Part shown: positions 28,992 through 41,552 of the stretch, in pieces
Layout of the letters: every line of letters begins with the position of its first letter
How positions within the stretch are numbered: position 1 is the first letter of the stretch
Source: Pelosinus fermentans JBW45
GTDB lineage: Bacteria > Bacillota > Negativicutes > DSM-13327
Direction of reading: 5' to 3'
Length of the DNA: 64,000 nt
NCBI RefSeq assembly: GCF_000271665.2
Contig: NZ_CP010978.1
Coordinates: 2,696,501-2,760,500 of the forward strand
Made by a program: the position numbers and the translations under genes
Notes under the pieces: model-generated
Databases searched by the model: none
What the model saw: the letters and a program-made list of their open reading frames with translations, nothing else
Told to the model about the DNA's origin: nothing

Positions 28992-29678
28992 ATGTCTAGA
29001 AAAAGTAAGATTGATCCAGTAGAAAAAGTAAAAATTGTTGAACGATACCTGAATGGCAAAATTGGCATTAGACAAGCGGGAAGAATTGCAAACGTAGCCT
29101 ACCAAAGTGTGCAGAGATGGGTGCGAATATATAAAGCAGAAGGTCCTATCGGATTGCTTAATCAAACCAAGAACCGAAGTTATTCAAAAACGTTAAAGAT
29201 GAATGCGGTTAATGACTATCTGAGTGGAAAAGGATCACTTGGTGACATTTGTCAAAAGTACGATATTCGTTCTAACAAGCAACTTTGTGATTGGATAAAG
29301 GTGTATAATTCTGGTGGAATACTTAAAGAATCCACTGGAGGTACATACATGACAAAAGCAAGAACAACAACTCCTGAAGAACGATTACAGGTAGTCAAGG
29401 ATTGTTTAATGAATGATAAAAACTATGGAGCAATGGCAAGCAAATACAATTGTTCTTATCAACAGATTCGAAACTGGGTCAAAAAGTATGAAGATATGGG
29501 AAGGGCTGGACTTGAAGACAGACGTGGTCACCGTGTTGGTTCGCAGCCAAGTCGTAGTCCAGAAGAAGAGCTACGGGATAAAATTGCAGAGTTGGAACGA
29601 ATGAACACCGATCTACAAATGGAGAATGATCTGTTAAAAAAAGTCAGGGAACTGGAGAGGAGGGATCACTATCTTTAG
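28992..29678 (+). CDS. IS150-type transposase OrfA (helix-turn-helix subunit)
   Basis: A 228-residue protein with three successive HTH_28-type units ('GIRQAGRIANVAYQSVQRWVRIYKAEG', 'LGDICQKYDIRSNKQLCDWIKVYN', 'YGAMASKYNCSYQQIRNWVKKYEDMG') and a C-terminal leucine-zipper coiled coil ('LRDKIAELERMNTDLQMENDLLKKV'). OrfA binds the terminal repeats and represses or assists transposition. The A7 run at 29636-29642 near its end is the frameshift site that fuses it to OrfB. At 228 residues it is longer than the roughly 170 of IS150 itself. Confidence 0.88.
   Translation: MSRKSKIDPVEKVKIVERYLNGKIGIRQAGRIANVAYQSVQRWVRIYKAEGPIGLLNQTKNRSYSKTLKMNAVNDYLSGKGSLGDICQKYDIRSNKQLCDWIKVYNSGGILKESTGGTYMTKARTTTPEERLQVVKDCLMNDKNYGAMASKYNCSYQQIRNWVKKYEDMGRAGLEDRRGHRVGSQPSRSPEEELRDKIAELERMNTDLQMENDLLKKVRELERRDHYL
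29636..29642 (+). other. A7 slippery sequence for -1 programmed frameshift
   Basis: Seven A residues read as TTA AAA AAA GTC in the orfA frame. Slipping back one base joins the orfA coiled coil directly to the open orfB frame. IS150-group elements use the same A-run device to make the active OrfAB transposase. Confidence 0.75.
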
Positions 29679-30571
29679 TACAGTACCTTACAGCCTATAT
29701 AGCTATCAAGGAATTATCTTCAACCAAAGGCTATCCAACAAAAAAATTATGTAAATATCTTAAAATCACGCGCTCTGCTTATTATCGTTGGCTCAATCAT
29801 CCAAAGAGTGATAGTGAAATTAAGAATGAACGTATTTCGGAAGAAATATATACTATCCATAAACAACATCCAGATATGGGATACCGCCGTATTCGTGATG
29901 AGCTGGATGTAAATTACAAAATTGTTGTGAACGATAAACGCGTTCTTCGTATTTGCAGAAACAAAGGAATTCAATCCACCATTAAATGGAGACCAAAAAG
30001 TTGTACCAGATCTGCTCGAAATCCGGACCACATCGCAAAAAACTATTTACACCGTGAATTCCACGCTGATATGCCTAATGAAAAATGGCTTACGGATGTT
30101 TCTGAATTCAAGTATTATATCGGTATTGAAGTTCACAAGATATATCTGAGTGCCATCCTGGATTTATACGACCGCAGAATTGTAGCCTTTAAAATTAGTA
30201 ATCATAACGATAATCCATTGGTTATGGATACTTTTGATGAAGCTGTTCGTTTGGAACCGGAGGCTCATCCGCTGTTCCACAGCGACCGTGGTTATCAATA
30301 TACAAGTGCTCAATTCCATATGCGTTTAAAAGATCATCACATGAAGCAAAGTATGTCCCGAGTAGCCCATTGCATTGACAATGGACCAATGGAAGGATTT
30401 TGGGGAATTTTGAAACGAGAAATGTATTATGGTCATCGTTTCACTAATAGAGATAATCTAGTGGAGGCTATAACGGATTACATAGATTACTACAATAATC
30501 GACGTCTGCAACGCAAGTTAAATGTAATGACACCAATGGCATACCATAATCATTATAGATTGGCAGCATAA
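29639..30571 (+). CDS. IS150-type transposase OrfB (DDE catalytic part, expressed by frameshift)
   Basis: About 310 residues in the -1 frame relative to orfA, with no good independent start until an ATG at 29876. The N-terminal HTH_21 region ('RSAYYRWLNHPKS', 'HKQHPDMGYRRIRDEL') is followed by the rve integrase core. The acidic triad lies in 'NEKWLTDVSEF', 'PLFHSDRGYQYTS' and 'NGPMEGFWGILKREMYYG'. It ends 'YYNNRRLQRKLNVMTPMAYH', typical of IS3-family transposases. No frame interruption is seen. Confidence 0.88.
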   Translation, partial: KSQGTGEEGSLSLVQYLTAYIAIKELSSTKGYPTKKLCKYLKITRSAYYRWLNHPKSDSEIKNERISEEIYTIHKQHPDMGYRRIRDELDVNYKIVVNDKRVLRICRNKGIQSTIKWRPKSCTRSARNPDHIAKNYLHREFHADMPNEKWLTDVSEFKYYIGIEVHKIYLSAILDLYDRRIVAFKISNHNDNPLVMDTFDEAVRLEPEAHPLFHSDRGYQYTSAQFHMRLKDHHMKQSMSRVAHCIDNGPMEGFWGILKREMYYGHRFTNRDNLVEAITDYIDYYNNRRLQRKLNVMTPMAYHNHYRLAA

Positions 30572-32610: not shown

Positions 32611-34269
32611 TCACAACTTGGTGATTTCTTTTATAATTTCATAAAACATGGGAGCAGCGATATCACTACCAGACATACCTTCTTCAACGAAAATAACTAC
32701 CGCATATTGAGGATTTTTTACTGGAGCATAACCTGCAAACCAAGCATGGTTGATGCTTTGTCCATCTGCATTTTTTCTTCCAGTTTCGGCTGATCCAGTT
32801 TTACCCGCCGATCCAATTCCTTCAACATACGCCGCCTGACCTGTACCATAACGAGTGACAGCCATCATCATATCTTGAATTTGTGCGGCAGTTCTTGGAG
32901 ATATAACTCGAATGCCTGGAGGCGTATCATATGCTTTTATAACTACACCATCAGCATTTGTCAGTTTACTAACGACATACGGTACCACTTTTATACCATC
33001 ATTAGCAATGGTAGCTACCAAGGAGGCAATCTGTAGAGGCGTTGCCTCTAATTTGCCCTGGCCGATAGCTAAATTGGCAAGTTCACCTGAATAAAGATTA
33101 TCAGATGGTGGTAAATAGCCTTCTGCCTCATCATTAAAATCTACACTCGTCTTATGACCAAAGCCAAATTTTTGTGCATAGGAAATTAAGGATTCTGCGC
33201 CTATTTTTAAGCCCACTTCAATAAAAACAGGATTACTAGAATAAGCTAATGCTTCTTTAAAAGTTATTTGACCACGCCCCCCCTTATCATAGTCCCATCC
33301 ATTAAAGCGTAGATGATCAACTTCAATATATCCTGGATCAAAAAATACATCCCCTGGCTGTATACTCTCTTGTTCTAAAGCTGCAGCTGCTGTTACCAAC
33401 TTAAATACAGATCCAGGCTGATAGGGGGATATAGCTCTATTTAGTAAAGGTGCGCTACTTTGATTTAAATACTCCTCAAGATGATTTGCATTGAAATTGG
33501 GTCTTGAAGCCATGGCCAATATTTCGCCTGTAGTAGGACGCAATACTACTACTGCTCCCTTGATACCATGCTTGTCTACTATATTTTCTACTGCTTTTTG
33601 GATTTGTTTATCTAAGGTTAACACTACATTACTTGGGTCGGAATGGCTTGATAATCGCAATCTCTTATAGCCAAGTCCTGGAATAATTTGTTGTCCGGCA
33701 TCCACTAGCGCAACTGCATATTCTGGTTGATTGCCTTTTAATATATCATCGTACATGCCTTCAATGCCGCTAACTCCTTGATTATCTGCAAGATTAATAT
33801 AGCCTTTAATATGTGCAGCCAAAGGAAGATATCCATATCTAACTTTTTCTGTTACTACCACAACTCCTGGAATTAGCGCCTTATTTATTTTTTCTCCCAT
33901 GGCAGCATCAATTTTACTCTTTATTTTAAATGGTCGATGATTTTCTGTAATTTGCGAAAAAAGGTTCAGTTCTGAGATTCCCGTTAATTCGGATAATTGT
34001 TCGGCAACCATTGCTGCATTTAGAATTTGTCCAGGAAAAACAGCGATTTTATAATGCTGCGCCGTATTTGTTAATGGTAATCCATTTCGATCTACAATTT
34101 CTCCTCGCGCAACCTCAATAGGTACTTCCTGAATACGCATACTCAAACTCTGCGTTACTAAATTATCATTCTCAATAACCTGCAAATAAAATAAACGTAT
34201 AATCAATAAACTACCAAATAGTACAAAGAAAATTAACAACTTATAAATGCGTAAAATTTGCAATGCCAT
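32611..34269 (-). CDS. Class B penicillin-binding protein (peptidoglycan transpeptidase, SpoVD/PBP2-like)
   Basis: A 552-residue protein with an N-terminal membrane anchor (residues 8-27), a PBP dimerisation domain ('VPIEVARGEIVDRNGLPL', 'IKGYINLADNQGVSGIEGMYDDIL') and a transpeptidase domain. The catalytic motifs are 'PGSVFKLVTAAAA' (SxxK), 'YSSNPVF' (SxN) and 'GKTGSAET' (KTG). No PASTA repeats are present. It cross-links peptidoglycan stem peptides outside the membrane. Its place, away from the dcw cluster and upstream of the efp region, does not say whether it serves growth or spore-wall synthesis. The ATG is inside a perfect hairpin (34260-34299). Confidence 0.88.
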   Translation of the reverse strand: MALQILRIYKLLIFFVLFGSLLIIRLFYLQVIENDNLVTQSLSMRIQEVPIEVARGEIVDRNGLPLTNTAQHYKIAVFPGQILNAAMVAEQLSELTGISELNLFSQITENHRPFKIKSKIDAAMGEKINKALIPGVVVVTEKVRYGYLPLAAHIKGYINLADNQGVSGIEGMYDDILKGNQPEYAVALVDAGQQIIPGLGYKRLRLSSHSDPSNVVLTLDKQIQKAVENIVDKHGIKGAVVVLRPTTGEILAMASRPNFNANHLEEYLNQSSAPLLNRAISPYQPGSVFKLVTAAAALEQESIQPGDVFFDPGYIEVDHLRFNGWDYDKGGRGQITFKEALAYSSNPVFIEVGLKIGAESLISYAQKFGFGHKTSVDFNDEAEGYLPPSDNLYSGELANLAIGQGKLEATPLQIASLVATIANDGIKVVPYVVSKLTNADGVVIKAYDTPPGIRVISPRTAAQIQDMMMAVTRYGTGQAAYVEGIGSAGKTGSAETGRKNADGQSINHAWFAGYAPVKNPQYAVVIFVEEGMSGSDIAAPMFYEIIKEITKL

Positions 34270-34299
34270 ACGATCACCTCAATGATAGTATGGCATTGC
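34260..34299 (-). promoter_or_regulatory. Perfect 12-base hairpin enclosing the PBP ribosome site and start codon
   Basis: GCAATGCCATAC (minus strand, 34299-34288) is the exact complement of GTATGGCATTGC (34271-34260), with a 16-base loop. The ATG is in the 3' arm (34269-34267) and the GAGGTGAT Shine-Dalgarno in the loop. Folding would block initiation. The 5' arm also opens a five-codon frame, MPYYH, whose TGA overlaps the Shine-Dalgarno. Confidence 0.7.
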
Positions 34300-34330
34300 T
34301 TGGCAAAATTATTATTTTTTTATCACTAAT

Positions 34331-34531
34331 CTAAACATAATCAAAATCAATCGGAAGATTTGCTAAAATATCCTGCACCTCTTTACATGTGTCAGGTGTA
34401 ACACGAATACGCAATACCCCGATCGTATCCTTTACCGTCGTCACTACCCCAAAATATTCATAGCCTTCCATAATTCGATTTAGATAATTAATATGTTTTA
34501 CATCTAGGCGAATCAAAATTTCCTCACGCAT
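34331..34531 (-). CDS. DUF4911 domain protein
   Basis: A 66-residue protein, 'MREEILIRLDVKHINYLNRIMEGYEYFGVVTTVKDTIGVLRIRVTPDTCKEVQDIL', matching DUF4911 at full length. The ATG at 34531 follows GAGGT with 8 bases spacing; an upstream GTG at 34546 is less likely. It overlaps the U32 gene by 8 bases, so it is probably translationally coupled to it. Function unknown; the fold reads like a small ACT-type alpha/beta domain (inference). Confidence 0.8.
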   Translation of the reverse strand: MREEILIRLDVKHINYLNRIMEGYEYFGVVTTVKDTIGVLRIRVTPDTCKEVQDILANLPIDFDYV

Positions 34532-35753
34532 TTTTTGGTACCTCACGTCGTAACATAGCGTATTCTACTACCTCTTGGCGCATTCGCATCTTTAAAAGTT
34601 GTTGAGGGTGAGGTGCGGTACTAATACTATTATCTTCTATGTCGAACATTTCAGTAATTACCTGGCTAAAATTAGGTTTTCCCGGTTGCATAATTTCTAT
34701 TTCCTGTCCGACTTTTATATTGTTACGTTGTTCAATAGTAGCCATTTTGGTTGTTGGATCATAGTTTTTGACTAAACCAATAAAATCAAAAGTTTGTTCA
34801 TAAGAGGAAGTTCCGTAGATCTGATCTTCTTGAGTTGCTTTGTTGAAATAAAATCCACTGGTATAAGCACGATGAGAAATTTTCTGCAACTCTTCCAGCC
34901 ATTCGGCTTTAACACTGTAATGATTCGGATCGTTTACATAAGCATCAATAGCCTCCCGATATACCTTAATGACAGTAGCTGCATAATGCACACTTTTCAT
35001 ACGTCCTTCTATCTTGAAACTATTTAAACTACTATTAATTAATTCTGGAATATGAGGGAGTAAGCATAAGTCTTTTGAGTTGAAGATATATGTCCCGCGT
35101 TCATCTTCCATAACAGGATAATATTCTCCTGGACGTTTTTCTTCCACTAAGCTAAATTTCCAACGACAGGGTTGGGCACATTGACCTCGATTTGCATCAC
35201 GATCTGTAAAATAATTGCTCATCAAACAACGTCCCGAATAAGAAATACACATAGCTCCATGAACAAAGGCTTCTAGTTCAATAGTAACTTTATCACGAAT
35301 TACAGTAATATCTGCTAATGACAGCTCCCTAGCTAATACTACTCGATTAGCCCCTAATTCCTGCCAAAACAGTACTGATGACCAATTGGTATTATTAGCT
35401 TGGGTGCTGATATGTATGGGCAGATTAGGTGCAACTTCTCGGATAATACGGTATACACCTAAATCTGCGACAATAACCGCATCGACGTGGCAATTAGACA
35501 AATATCGAATATAATCTGGCAATGTCGGTAAATCTTCATTATGGGGAAATATATTTACCGTTACATATGCTTTTTTTTGCAAACTATGAGCAAATTCAAC
35601 TCCTTCTTTAAGTTCATCTTCCGTAAAGTTGTCACTAAAAGCTCGCAATCCAAAAGACTTTCCTGCCAAAAAAACTGCATCTGCACCATATAAAAGAGCC
35701 ATCTTGAGTTTCTCAAGATTACCTGCTGGTGCTAAAAGTTCGGGTTTTTTCAC
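34524..35753 (-). CDS. trhP: U32 family protein, likely tRNA uridine hydroxylation factor TrhP
   Basis: A 409-residue U32 'peptidase' family protein: 'KPELLAPAGNLEKLKMALLYGADAVFLAG' at the start, 'ELEAFVHGAMCISYSGRCLMSNYFTDRDANRGQCAQPCRW' with the four Cys that hold an Fe-S cluster in this family, and 'FKIEGRMKSVHYAATVIKVYREAID'. In B. subtilis the homologues YrrN/YrrO (TrhP1/P2) make 5-hydroxyuridine at tRNA position 34. The adjacent TrmR gene, which methylates that product, supports the assignment over true peptidase activity. Only one U32 gene is present here. Confidence 0.85.
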   Translation of the reverse strand: MKKPELLAPAGNLEKLKMALLYGADAVFLAGKSFGLRAFSDNFTEDELKEGVEFAHSLQKKAYVTVNIFPHNEDLPTLPDYIRYLSNCHVDAVIVADLGVYRIIREVAPNLPIHISTQANNTNWSSVLFWQELGANRVVLARELSLADITVIRDKVTIELEAFVHGAMCISYSGRCLMSNYFTDRDANRGQCAQPCRWKFSLVEEKRPGEYYPVMEDERGTYIFNSKDLCLLPHIPELINSSLNSFKIEGRMKSVHYAATVIKVYREAIDAYVNDPNHYSVKAEWLEELQKISHRAYTSGFYFNKATQEDQIYGTSSYEQTFDFIGLVKNYDPTTKMATIEQRNNIKVGQEIEIMQPGKPNFSQVITEMFDIEDNSISTAPHPQQLLKMRMRQEVVEYAMLRREVPKNA

Positions 35754-37552: not shown

Positions 37553-37588
37553 GAAAAAAGATGAAGCCTATTCGGCTTCATCTTCTAC
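37552..37588 (-). terminator. Terminator overlapping the DUF1292 stop codon
   Basis: GAAGATGAAGCC, a 5-base loop, and GGCTTCATCTTTTTT on the minus strand. The left arm encodes the final residues of the DUF1292 protein and the stop is in the loop. Confidence 0.88.
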
Positions 37589-37909
37589 CATTAGTTCTTC
37601 ATAAGCTTTACGAACTTCTTCAAACTCTTCATCGGTAGGATCGACATATATTTCCTCGCCATTTTCATCAGTATCAATGCGCGCAATATATACATCAACT
37701 TCATCTTCAGAACAACCGCATCCAGCATTACATCCGCAATCTTCTTCCTCTTCGCCATCTTCAATGGGAATCAAAATAGCATACTGCTTGTCACCAACTG
37801 GAACAATCATTTCCTCACGATAATAATATTCATTACCCTCTTCATCAGTCATAACGACTACGAGCTCTTCATCCAATTCTTCGAGGTCATCTTTTTCAAT
37901 ATCAGCCAT
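37568..37909 (-). CDS. DUF1292 domain protein, acidic, with a Cys cluster
   Basis: A 113-residue strongly acidic protein. Residues 14-55 form the DUF1292 core ('VVVMTDEEGNEYYYREEMIVPVGDKQYAILIPIE'). It is followed by 'DCGCNAGCGCSED', five cysteines in ten residues, which could bind a metal ion, and a second half 'VYIARIDTDENGEEIYVDPTDEEFEEVRKAYEEL'. Homologues (YrzB in Bacillus) lie in the same place, after ruvX and before mltG. Function unknown. Confidence 0.88.
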   Translation of the reverse strand: MADIEKDDLEELDEELVVVMTDEEGNEYYYREEMIVPVGDKQYAILIPIEDGEEEEDCGCNAGCGCSEDEVDVYIARIDTDENGEEIYVDPTDEEFEEVRKAYEELMVEDEAE

Positions 37910-37978
37910 TCATTTCACCTCTTCCTTTTAATGTACATGTAATTTTATCTTAGAAAAGTTATCCTGTCAAGGAAGTTA

Positions 37979-41517: not shown

Positions 41518-41524
41518 TTCGACA
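41518..41524 (-). promoter_or_regulatory. 0A-box-like heptamer at the alaS transcription start
   Basis: TGTCGAA on the minus strand sits immediately after the TATAAT of the alaS promoter, so bound Spo0A~P would block RNA polymerase. The heptamer is short and occurs by chance elsewhere in the window inside genes; only this copy and the one near spo0A are intergenic. Confidence 0.35.
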
Positions 41525-41552
41525 TTATACATAAATTATCGCATGATGTCAA
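41524..41552 (-). promoter_or_regulatory. Consensus sigma-A promoter of alaS
   Basis: The minus strand has TTGACA (41552-41547), exactly 17 bases ending in TG, then TATAAT (41529-41524): a perfect consensus in both boxes. The alaS start is about 30 bases downstream. Confidence 0.9.

Follow-up and report, generated by a model that had tools for sequence, protein, structure and literature searches.

Shutting a gene in read-through RNA by a hairpin that is missing from the gene's own transcript is a type of mechanism that is already known, from bacteriophage T4 gene e and, as a proposal, from sigG of Bacillus subtilis. In T4, early read-through RNA of gene e (lysozyme), and also of soc, 49, and I-TevI, hides the Shine-Dalgarno sequence (SD) and the start codon in a hairpin, according to the available text of PMC3014915. 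Late promoters just upstream give transcripts without the 5′ strand, which are translated, and in T4-related phages the late promoter lies within the DNA encoding the 5′ strand of the hairpin (same text, PMC3014915). For sigG of B. subtilis, the available part of PMC5942855 proposes that a large hairpin blocks translation of spoIIGA-sigE read-through RNA, whereas RNA started at sigG's own forespore promoter cannot fold into this hairpin. The same part of PMC5942855 describes a small hairpin at the sigG ribosome-binding site (RBS) of Bacilli, which forms in the gene's own transcript and has a 2-4-fold damping effect.

A comparable arrangement is proposed here for the leader of a gene encoding a class B penicillin-binding protein (PBP) in the window, that is, the whole stretch of 64,000 nucleotides that was analyzed. 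The hairpin at the start of this gene would insulate a sporulation PBP from vegetative read-through, and the gene's own forespore promoter, located in the 5′ arm, would yield unlocked RNA; we give this reading a probability of roughly 0.7. The sporulation promoter would sit between the upstream growth genes and the start codon, and its −10 element, CATACTAT, together with the bases just before it, would pair with the start codon and codons 2-3. Forespore RNA from this promoter would begin in the loop, lack the 5′ arm, and be translated. Read-through RNA from the alaS-to-DUF4911 genes would carry the 5′ arm, so that the hairpin would fold and the PBP start would be shut. The same bases would serve as promoter in DNA and as lock in RNA, which would be economical.

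The arrangement proposed for the PBP leader is the one described for gene e in the available text of PMC3014915. However, the T4 case involves a phage late sigma factor and the timing of lysis, whereas the PBP case involves a chromosomal gene, a proposed forespore promoter, and a cell-wall transpeptidase, in 15 families. As in B. subtilis sigG, the lock is proposed for read-through RNA and would be absent from own-promoter RNA, but in sigG the read-through comes from a sporulation operon and the stem has 20 or more pairs, whereas the PBP gene would be read through from housekeeping genes. The small sigG hairpin shares with it the occlusion of the RBS of a sporulation gene, yet the PBP hairpin would be absent from the gene's own transcript. 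In yeast, long undecoded transcript isoforms are known, in which a longer transcript of a developmental gene is made and not decoded, as is proposed for PBP; these are eukaryotic and act via upstream reading frames and chromatin, not via an RBS hairpin. Searches on Negativicutes sporulation PBP, leader, and mechanism, with subscription literature mostly outside reach, found no published description of the PBP leader. What seems new is how deeply the arrangement is conserved within a bacterial class, that a −10 element forms part of the lock, and that the lock is exchanged with terminator-like hairpins. The sigG leaders of the class were considered as a second case and dropped, since no start hairpin comparable to that of PBP was seen in them by eye.

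The first-pass annotation had described 12-base perfect arms, a 16-base loop containing the SD, and an ATG in the 3′ arm, and this was confirmed on the minus strand at 34260-34299, where the letters from 34299 to 34260 read GCAATGCCATAC-TATCATTGAGGTGATC-GTATGGCATTGC (Table 1). Its assignment of the gene to the class B PBPs also holds, as the protein has the Pfam domains Transpeptidase and PBP_dimer; it matches the PBP2 and SpoVD models below their cut-offs. Six named loci are matched by the protein: three from Pelosinus (92, 91, and 81% identity), two from Selenomonadales metagenome-assembled genomes (MAGs; 62%), and a fragment with 95% identity in a MAG labelled Clostridia bacterium. From the Pelosinus match, the class of genomes compared is taken to be Negativicutes.

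The predicted fold of a 101-nt piece with the hairpin has an energy of −23.8 kcal/mol (z = −4.06; 0 of 200 shuffles equally stable); it was computed on the plus strand, whose hairpin is the mirror image of the minus-strand one. Among the 58 scorable of 59 gene-like open reading frames in the window, the PBP start is the only one within a perfect stem of at least 8 pairs (12; the next longest is 7), and random window positions reach a stem of at least 12 in 50 of 20,000 draws. A search of the 5.38-Mb genome for the hairpin pattern, tolerating up to 3 mismatches, gave a single site, which ruled out a repeat family or mobile palindrome. An Rfam search of 33900-34700 gave no family at cut-off, its sole match being a snoRNA at 18.7 bits (cut-off 50) on the other strand. 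The hairpin itself as a terminator was set aside by eye, as AAATTTTACG comes after the 3′ arm; the terminator scan of the region took loops of 3-8 only, and a hairpin with a 16-base loop is outside its reach.

Table 1. Features of the PBP locus and of a similar arrangement in two other genomes (window positions unless a contig is given)
Feature	Position	Strand	Basis or remark
Class B penicillin-binding protein gene, 552 aa	32611-34269	-	Pfam Transpeptidase and PBP_dimer; sporulation-associated in the class
3′ arm GTATGGCATTGC	34260-34271	-	2 bases before start, ATG, codons 2-3, first base of codon 4
PBP ATG	34267-34269	-	Inside 3′ arm
Loop with Shine-Dalgarno	34272-34287	-	Sequence
Shine-Dalgarno GAGGTGAT	34273-34280	-	Sequence and relatives' leaders
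Expected transcription start, in loop	34277-34282	-	Inferred from usual spacing
CATACTAT, proposed −10 of a forespore (sigma-G/F type) promoter	34285-34292	-	Overlaps 5′ arm; resembles SASP promoter −10
5′ arm GCAATGCCATAC	34288-34299	-	Non-coding; expected only in RNA entering from upstream; conserved and covarying in relatives
Weak candidate −35 AAAATAA, spacer 18	34312-34318	-	Promoter model
DUF4911 gene, 66 aa	34331-34531	-	Upstream; end 61 nt from PBP start
U32 peptidase-family gene	34524-35753	-	Upstream of DUF4911 gene
Sigma-70-like promoter TTGACA-17-TAAAAT, 11/12	37942-37970	-	Consensus match only; upstream of small acidic protein gene 37568-37909; possible read-through source
Sigma-70-like promoter TTGACA-17-TATAAT, 12/12	41524-41552	-	Consensus match only; upstream of alaS; possible read-through source
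DUF1540-domain gene L131	G017 C22:54890-54926	minus	CATACTA...SD...AGTATGGC arrangement
DUF1540 case, second copy	G034 C30:15473-15509		Pattern match only

The PBP gene tracks sporulation in the class. Among the 380 class genomes returned by the search, an orthologue of PBP (E <= 1e-95) is present in 51 and SpoIVA in 52; both are found in 50, PBP only in 1, SpoIVA only in 2, and neither in 327. The genome with PBP only has SASP genes and sigG over the cut-off. Of the two with SpoIVA only, one (G008) has the PBP leader at the very end of a contig, and the other (G102) is 88% complete, with SpoIVA split in two pieces near contig ends. To our knowledge, spore wall synthesis of Negativicutes has been little studied, and this class B PBP, proposed to be forespore-expressed, is hereby marked as part of the sporulation set of the class.

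On the same strand, the gene order towards PBP is alaS, small genes, a YceG/MltG-family gene, a methyltransferase-like gene (by eye), the U32 peptidase-family gene, and the DUF4911 gene; spoIIIAA lies downstream of PBP within the window. A scan for a hairpin followed by T-rich sequence found no terminator-like site in the 61-nt gap between DUF4911 and PBP. On the minus strand between 37942 and PBP, it found two, both within genes, and the whole scan gave 7 such sites against 5.2 in shuffles. Promoter-like sites in the region number 33 against 35.1 by chance in shuffles, and it is from consensus promoters that are thus no commoner than chance that we infer vegetative read-through into PBP. A DUF4911-like gene directly precedes PBP in most of 50 orthologous loci, as judged by eye; the domain itself was tested in the window only. 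The window also carries a two-frame transposase-like insertion on the plus strand (28992-30571), between efp and the CD1247-domain/spoIIIA genes (IS3-like character and efp by eye).

Leaders were read for 50 of the 51 orthologues; G142 was left out, as its match begins only at residue 51. Leaders, genomes, and families are labelled L, G, and f with a number, and the window gene belongs to f1. The motif CATACTA occurs in 40 of the 50 leaders and in 15 of 18 families. A contiguous stem of at least 9 pairs (G-U allowed) runs through the start codon in 37 of these 40, with at least one such leader in each of the 15 families.

With the 5′ arm in the RNA, the PBP start should be closed according to structure prediction. 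Opening the window gene from SD to start has a predicted cost of 22.6 kcal/mol, the highest value among 40 window genes whose SD is strong (next 10.5, median 6.6). As the 5′ end of the RNA shifts from 34299 to 34290, the predicted cost falls from 23.9 to 4.9 kcal/mol; it is 22-24 with the arm and at most 5 once the 5′ end is at 34290 or further downstream. Over 40 leaders, the predicted medians are 21.1 kcal/mol for the long RNA, 4.4 for RNA starting after the −10 (constrained to at least 14 nt before the start), and 10.3 with the arm shuffled. The cost reaches at least 16 kcal/mol in 37 of the 50 orthologous leaders. Their median of 21.0 (n=50) compares with 8.4 for SASP genes (highest 13.7, n=30) and 4.8 for spoIVA (highest 9.1, n=13) of the same genomes.

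The first-pass annotation had taken the hairpin for a gate on initiation, opened by ribosome movement through a mini-frame, by a protein or RNA partner, or by temperature. Predicted closure of the start agrees with this as long as the arm is in the RNA, but the opening switch is not supported: the mini-frame lacks conservation, Rfam gives no family at cut-off, and a forespore-type −10 lies within the arm. The five-codon frame opened by the 5′ arm is present in the window leader, as had been described (ATG CCA TAC TAT CAT TGA), yet it looks incidental because an ATG is kept at this place in only 15 of 40 orthologous leaders, and in 2 of those 15 the frame runs beyond the gene start. A regulated translational gate, in which the gene would be read from RNA with the whole hairpin, is unlikely, real, strong, and conserved as the hairpin is. 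The loop length varies widely (the start is 23 to 75 nt from the C of CATACTA), contrary to what a fixed partner site would require, and a gate leaves the −10 in the arm and the terminator-like hairpins of lock-less leaders unexplained. A forespore-type −10 in the arm would place the 5′ end of the active message downstream of the arm; therefore, the hairpin would form only in read-through RNA. A transcription start inside the arm, with no hairpin formed, had been counted by the first-pass annotation against its own reading, and it would become half of the insulation mechanism.

The candidate −10, CATACTAT, satisfies the pattern CATnCTA, and the SASP set yields gCATtCTAT. After seeding with a sigma-G consensus, a two-block promoter model was fitted on SASP leaders from the same set of genomes (24 of 30, once near copies had been dropped), and it gave −35 tGTATgT and −10 gCATtCTAT. 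Its best site coincides with the CATACTA motif in 38 of the 40 leaders and lies elsewhere in two of the eight f1 leaders. For only 19 of the 40 leaders with CATACTA is the promoter score higher than in every one of 30 shuffles of that leader. The window gene falls outside these 19, scoring 10.0 against a shuffle mean of 6.9 and a maximum of 13.1. It is the −10 that carries the score. A −35 like GnATA, at about 16-18 nt, is better in f3, f31, f32, L010, L020, L022, and L026, partly in f23, and weak in f1, the Pelosinus family. With a full score inside the shuffle range and a poor −35 in Pelosinus, the case for the promoter depends chiefly on conservation of the −10 and on the link with sporulation. 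Assuming the usual distance from promoter to transcription start, the most frequent spacing class would leave the sporulation mRNA a leader of just 8-13 nt or so, which counts against the claim.

Insulation of the same kind could also operate with an internal promoter read by sigma-A, through an extended −10 (TGCCATACT), or by sigma E, F, or K, not by sigma-G. CATACT agrees with TATAAT at 4 of 6 positions by eye, and Pelosinus has a weak −35. CATACTA is missing from all six f26 and both f27 leaders. Five in f26 have GGAGAAACTAA, the f27 pair has GGAGAAAATA or GGAGAGAATA, and the sixth f26 leader, L039, has neither. All three sequences look similar to the sigma-F −10 consensus. A reader other than sigma-G is nevertheless improbable: the 7-base CATACTA is kept far past the needs of sigma-A, the T at −3 that a TG extension would require is absent from 20 of the 36 distinct leaders, the SASP-trained model, though seeded with a sigma-G consensus, picks the site in 38 of the 40, and presence of the gene follows sporulation. 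We do not insist on sigma-G for the insulating promoter, because sigma-F and sigma-G forespore promoters overlap in Clostridioides difficile, as stated in the available part of PMC7438776. In L054, one of the f27 pair, another hairpin (AGGCAATAT/ATATTGCCT) surrounds the proposed −10, upstream of the SD and not over the start. Many sigG leaders of the class (L141-L170) have a promoter-like GAATAAAA...GGCAATAATG by eye, which is a useful forespore promoter reference.

Alignment of the leaders of relatives, which had been suggested together with the gate, showed that the 5′ arm is conserved and changes in compensation with the coding arm. After identical arms were merged, 36 distinct arm pairs remained, and the counts from them carry no correction for descent. 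Across from base −3 of the 5′ arm lies the third base of codon 2, which coding leaves free; the two form A-T in 18, T-A in 15, and G-U in 2, and are unpaired in 1. This gives 35 of 36 paired (97%), against 46% with partners from other families. Over pairs −6 to −1, 182 of 216 cells are paired (permutation mean 151.2, sd 5.3; 0 of 5000 as high), and the excess is located at −5 to −3. Beyond −5, pairing does not exceed what partners from other families give (56 vs 51% at −6; 33-44 vs 33-43% further out), the two outermost pairs of the window hairpin (−6, −7) are not kept above chance in relatives, and positions 5 to 7 show no pairing beyond expectation (83 of 108; 591 of 5000 as high). Both orientations at −3, A-T and T-A, occur within f9 and within f23, and f24 has T-A and G-U. 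L029 encodes Pro in place of Ala at codon 2, and its 5′ arm shows the matching change, GGC in place of GCC. L023 and L011 have quite different letters and still a predicted hairpin over the start or SD. In a tree of 43 proteins, the switch at the wobble position amounts to 3 independent contrasts on supported branches (median p 0.25); over 200 random pairings, the contrasts are nearly always as expected and never opposite. Phylogenetic sign tests were given up as proof, with independent contrasts too few. An excess of G-U pairs was likewise unusable as proof of RNA, as 10 were observed at −5 to −1 against 11.3 expected; only the drop in other mismatches, 18 against 51.3 of 180 cells, favours pairing. 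On these comparisons of sequence, the hairpin looks to be under selection.

It is very improbable that the inverted repeat is a DNA site, such as the operator of a dimeric repressor, and not an RNA structure: many leaders have a near-palindrome at the central GCCATACTAT / ATAGTATGGC, but the distance between the arms varies as widely as the loop, outer arm letters change while complementarity stays, mismatches other than G-U are depleted with G-U about as expected, and the site is unique in the genome. Hardly credible, too, is the absence of any selected structure, with the 5′ arm only a promoter, the 3′ arm only coding, and their match due to descent and chance; the −10 element and the ATG can account for the core CATAC/GTATG, and kin genomes share letters, so that shuffle tests overstate, but bases upstream of the −10, unneeded by the promoter, follow a free codon position in both orientations within single families (f9, f23), L029 is altered on both sides, and the hairpins of L023 and L011 are built from unrelated letters.

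In two families, the start lock is, as far as the leaders can be read, replaced by terminator-like hairpins. Each gap in the 50 leaders was scored for a hairpin followed by T-rich sequence, and the cut-offs of 16 kcal/mol for the start hairpin and −16 for the terminator were picked after the values were seen. The terminator-like score reaches −16 kcal/mol in 8 of the 50 leaders, namely all six of f26, L054, and L055; the term terminator-like fits, as the T-run is poor in some f26 leaders. Seven of these eight have no strong start hairpin (<16 kcal/mol; L039 15.0, L038 12.8), and L055 carries both kinds of hairpin. A strong start hairpin is found in 36 of the 42 leaders without a terminator-like one (Fisher p = 1.2e-4, uncorrected for descent), and terminator gain is a single event among the 43 tree rows. 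The 13 of 50 leaders without a strong lock comprise 7 that are terminator-like, from the two families, 1 with a divergent neighbour (L058, stem broken), 1 with a distant neighbour (L056, moved to 641 nt behind an unrelated gene), and 4 that are unexplained. These four are poorer fits, with a co-directional gene upstream and no strong terminator: L016 has a 7-bp stem, L020 has lost the start stem and keeps an SD hairpin only, L022 has a 75-nt spacing and an opening cost of 8.7 kcal/mol, and L043 has an opening cost of 12.7 kcal/mol. Lineages with a terminator-like hairpin instead of the lock would be a natural experiment.

If the insulation reading is true, a trick of a phage and of a single Bacillus gene would be a stable way to silence a developmental gene behind growth genes, across most spore-formers of the class. 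A general rule in spore-formers, by which forespore genes behind growth operons would use their own −10 region as anti-start arm, with the lock exchanged with a terminator, is doubtful. A search for the pattern CCATACTA...GTATGG gave matches in 29 of 60 genomes, and the reversed control pattern also matched often. The 19 pattern loci that were inspected comprise PBP leaders, sites whose ATG opens no long frame, one frame of 199 aa (L134), and one case with a DUF1540 domain. This DUF1540-domain gene, present in two f9 genomes, starts inside GCCATACTA...AGGAGGTG...AGTATGGC, with arms of about 9 pairs, and is a possible second lock.
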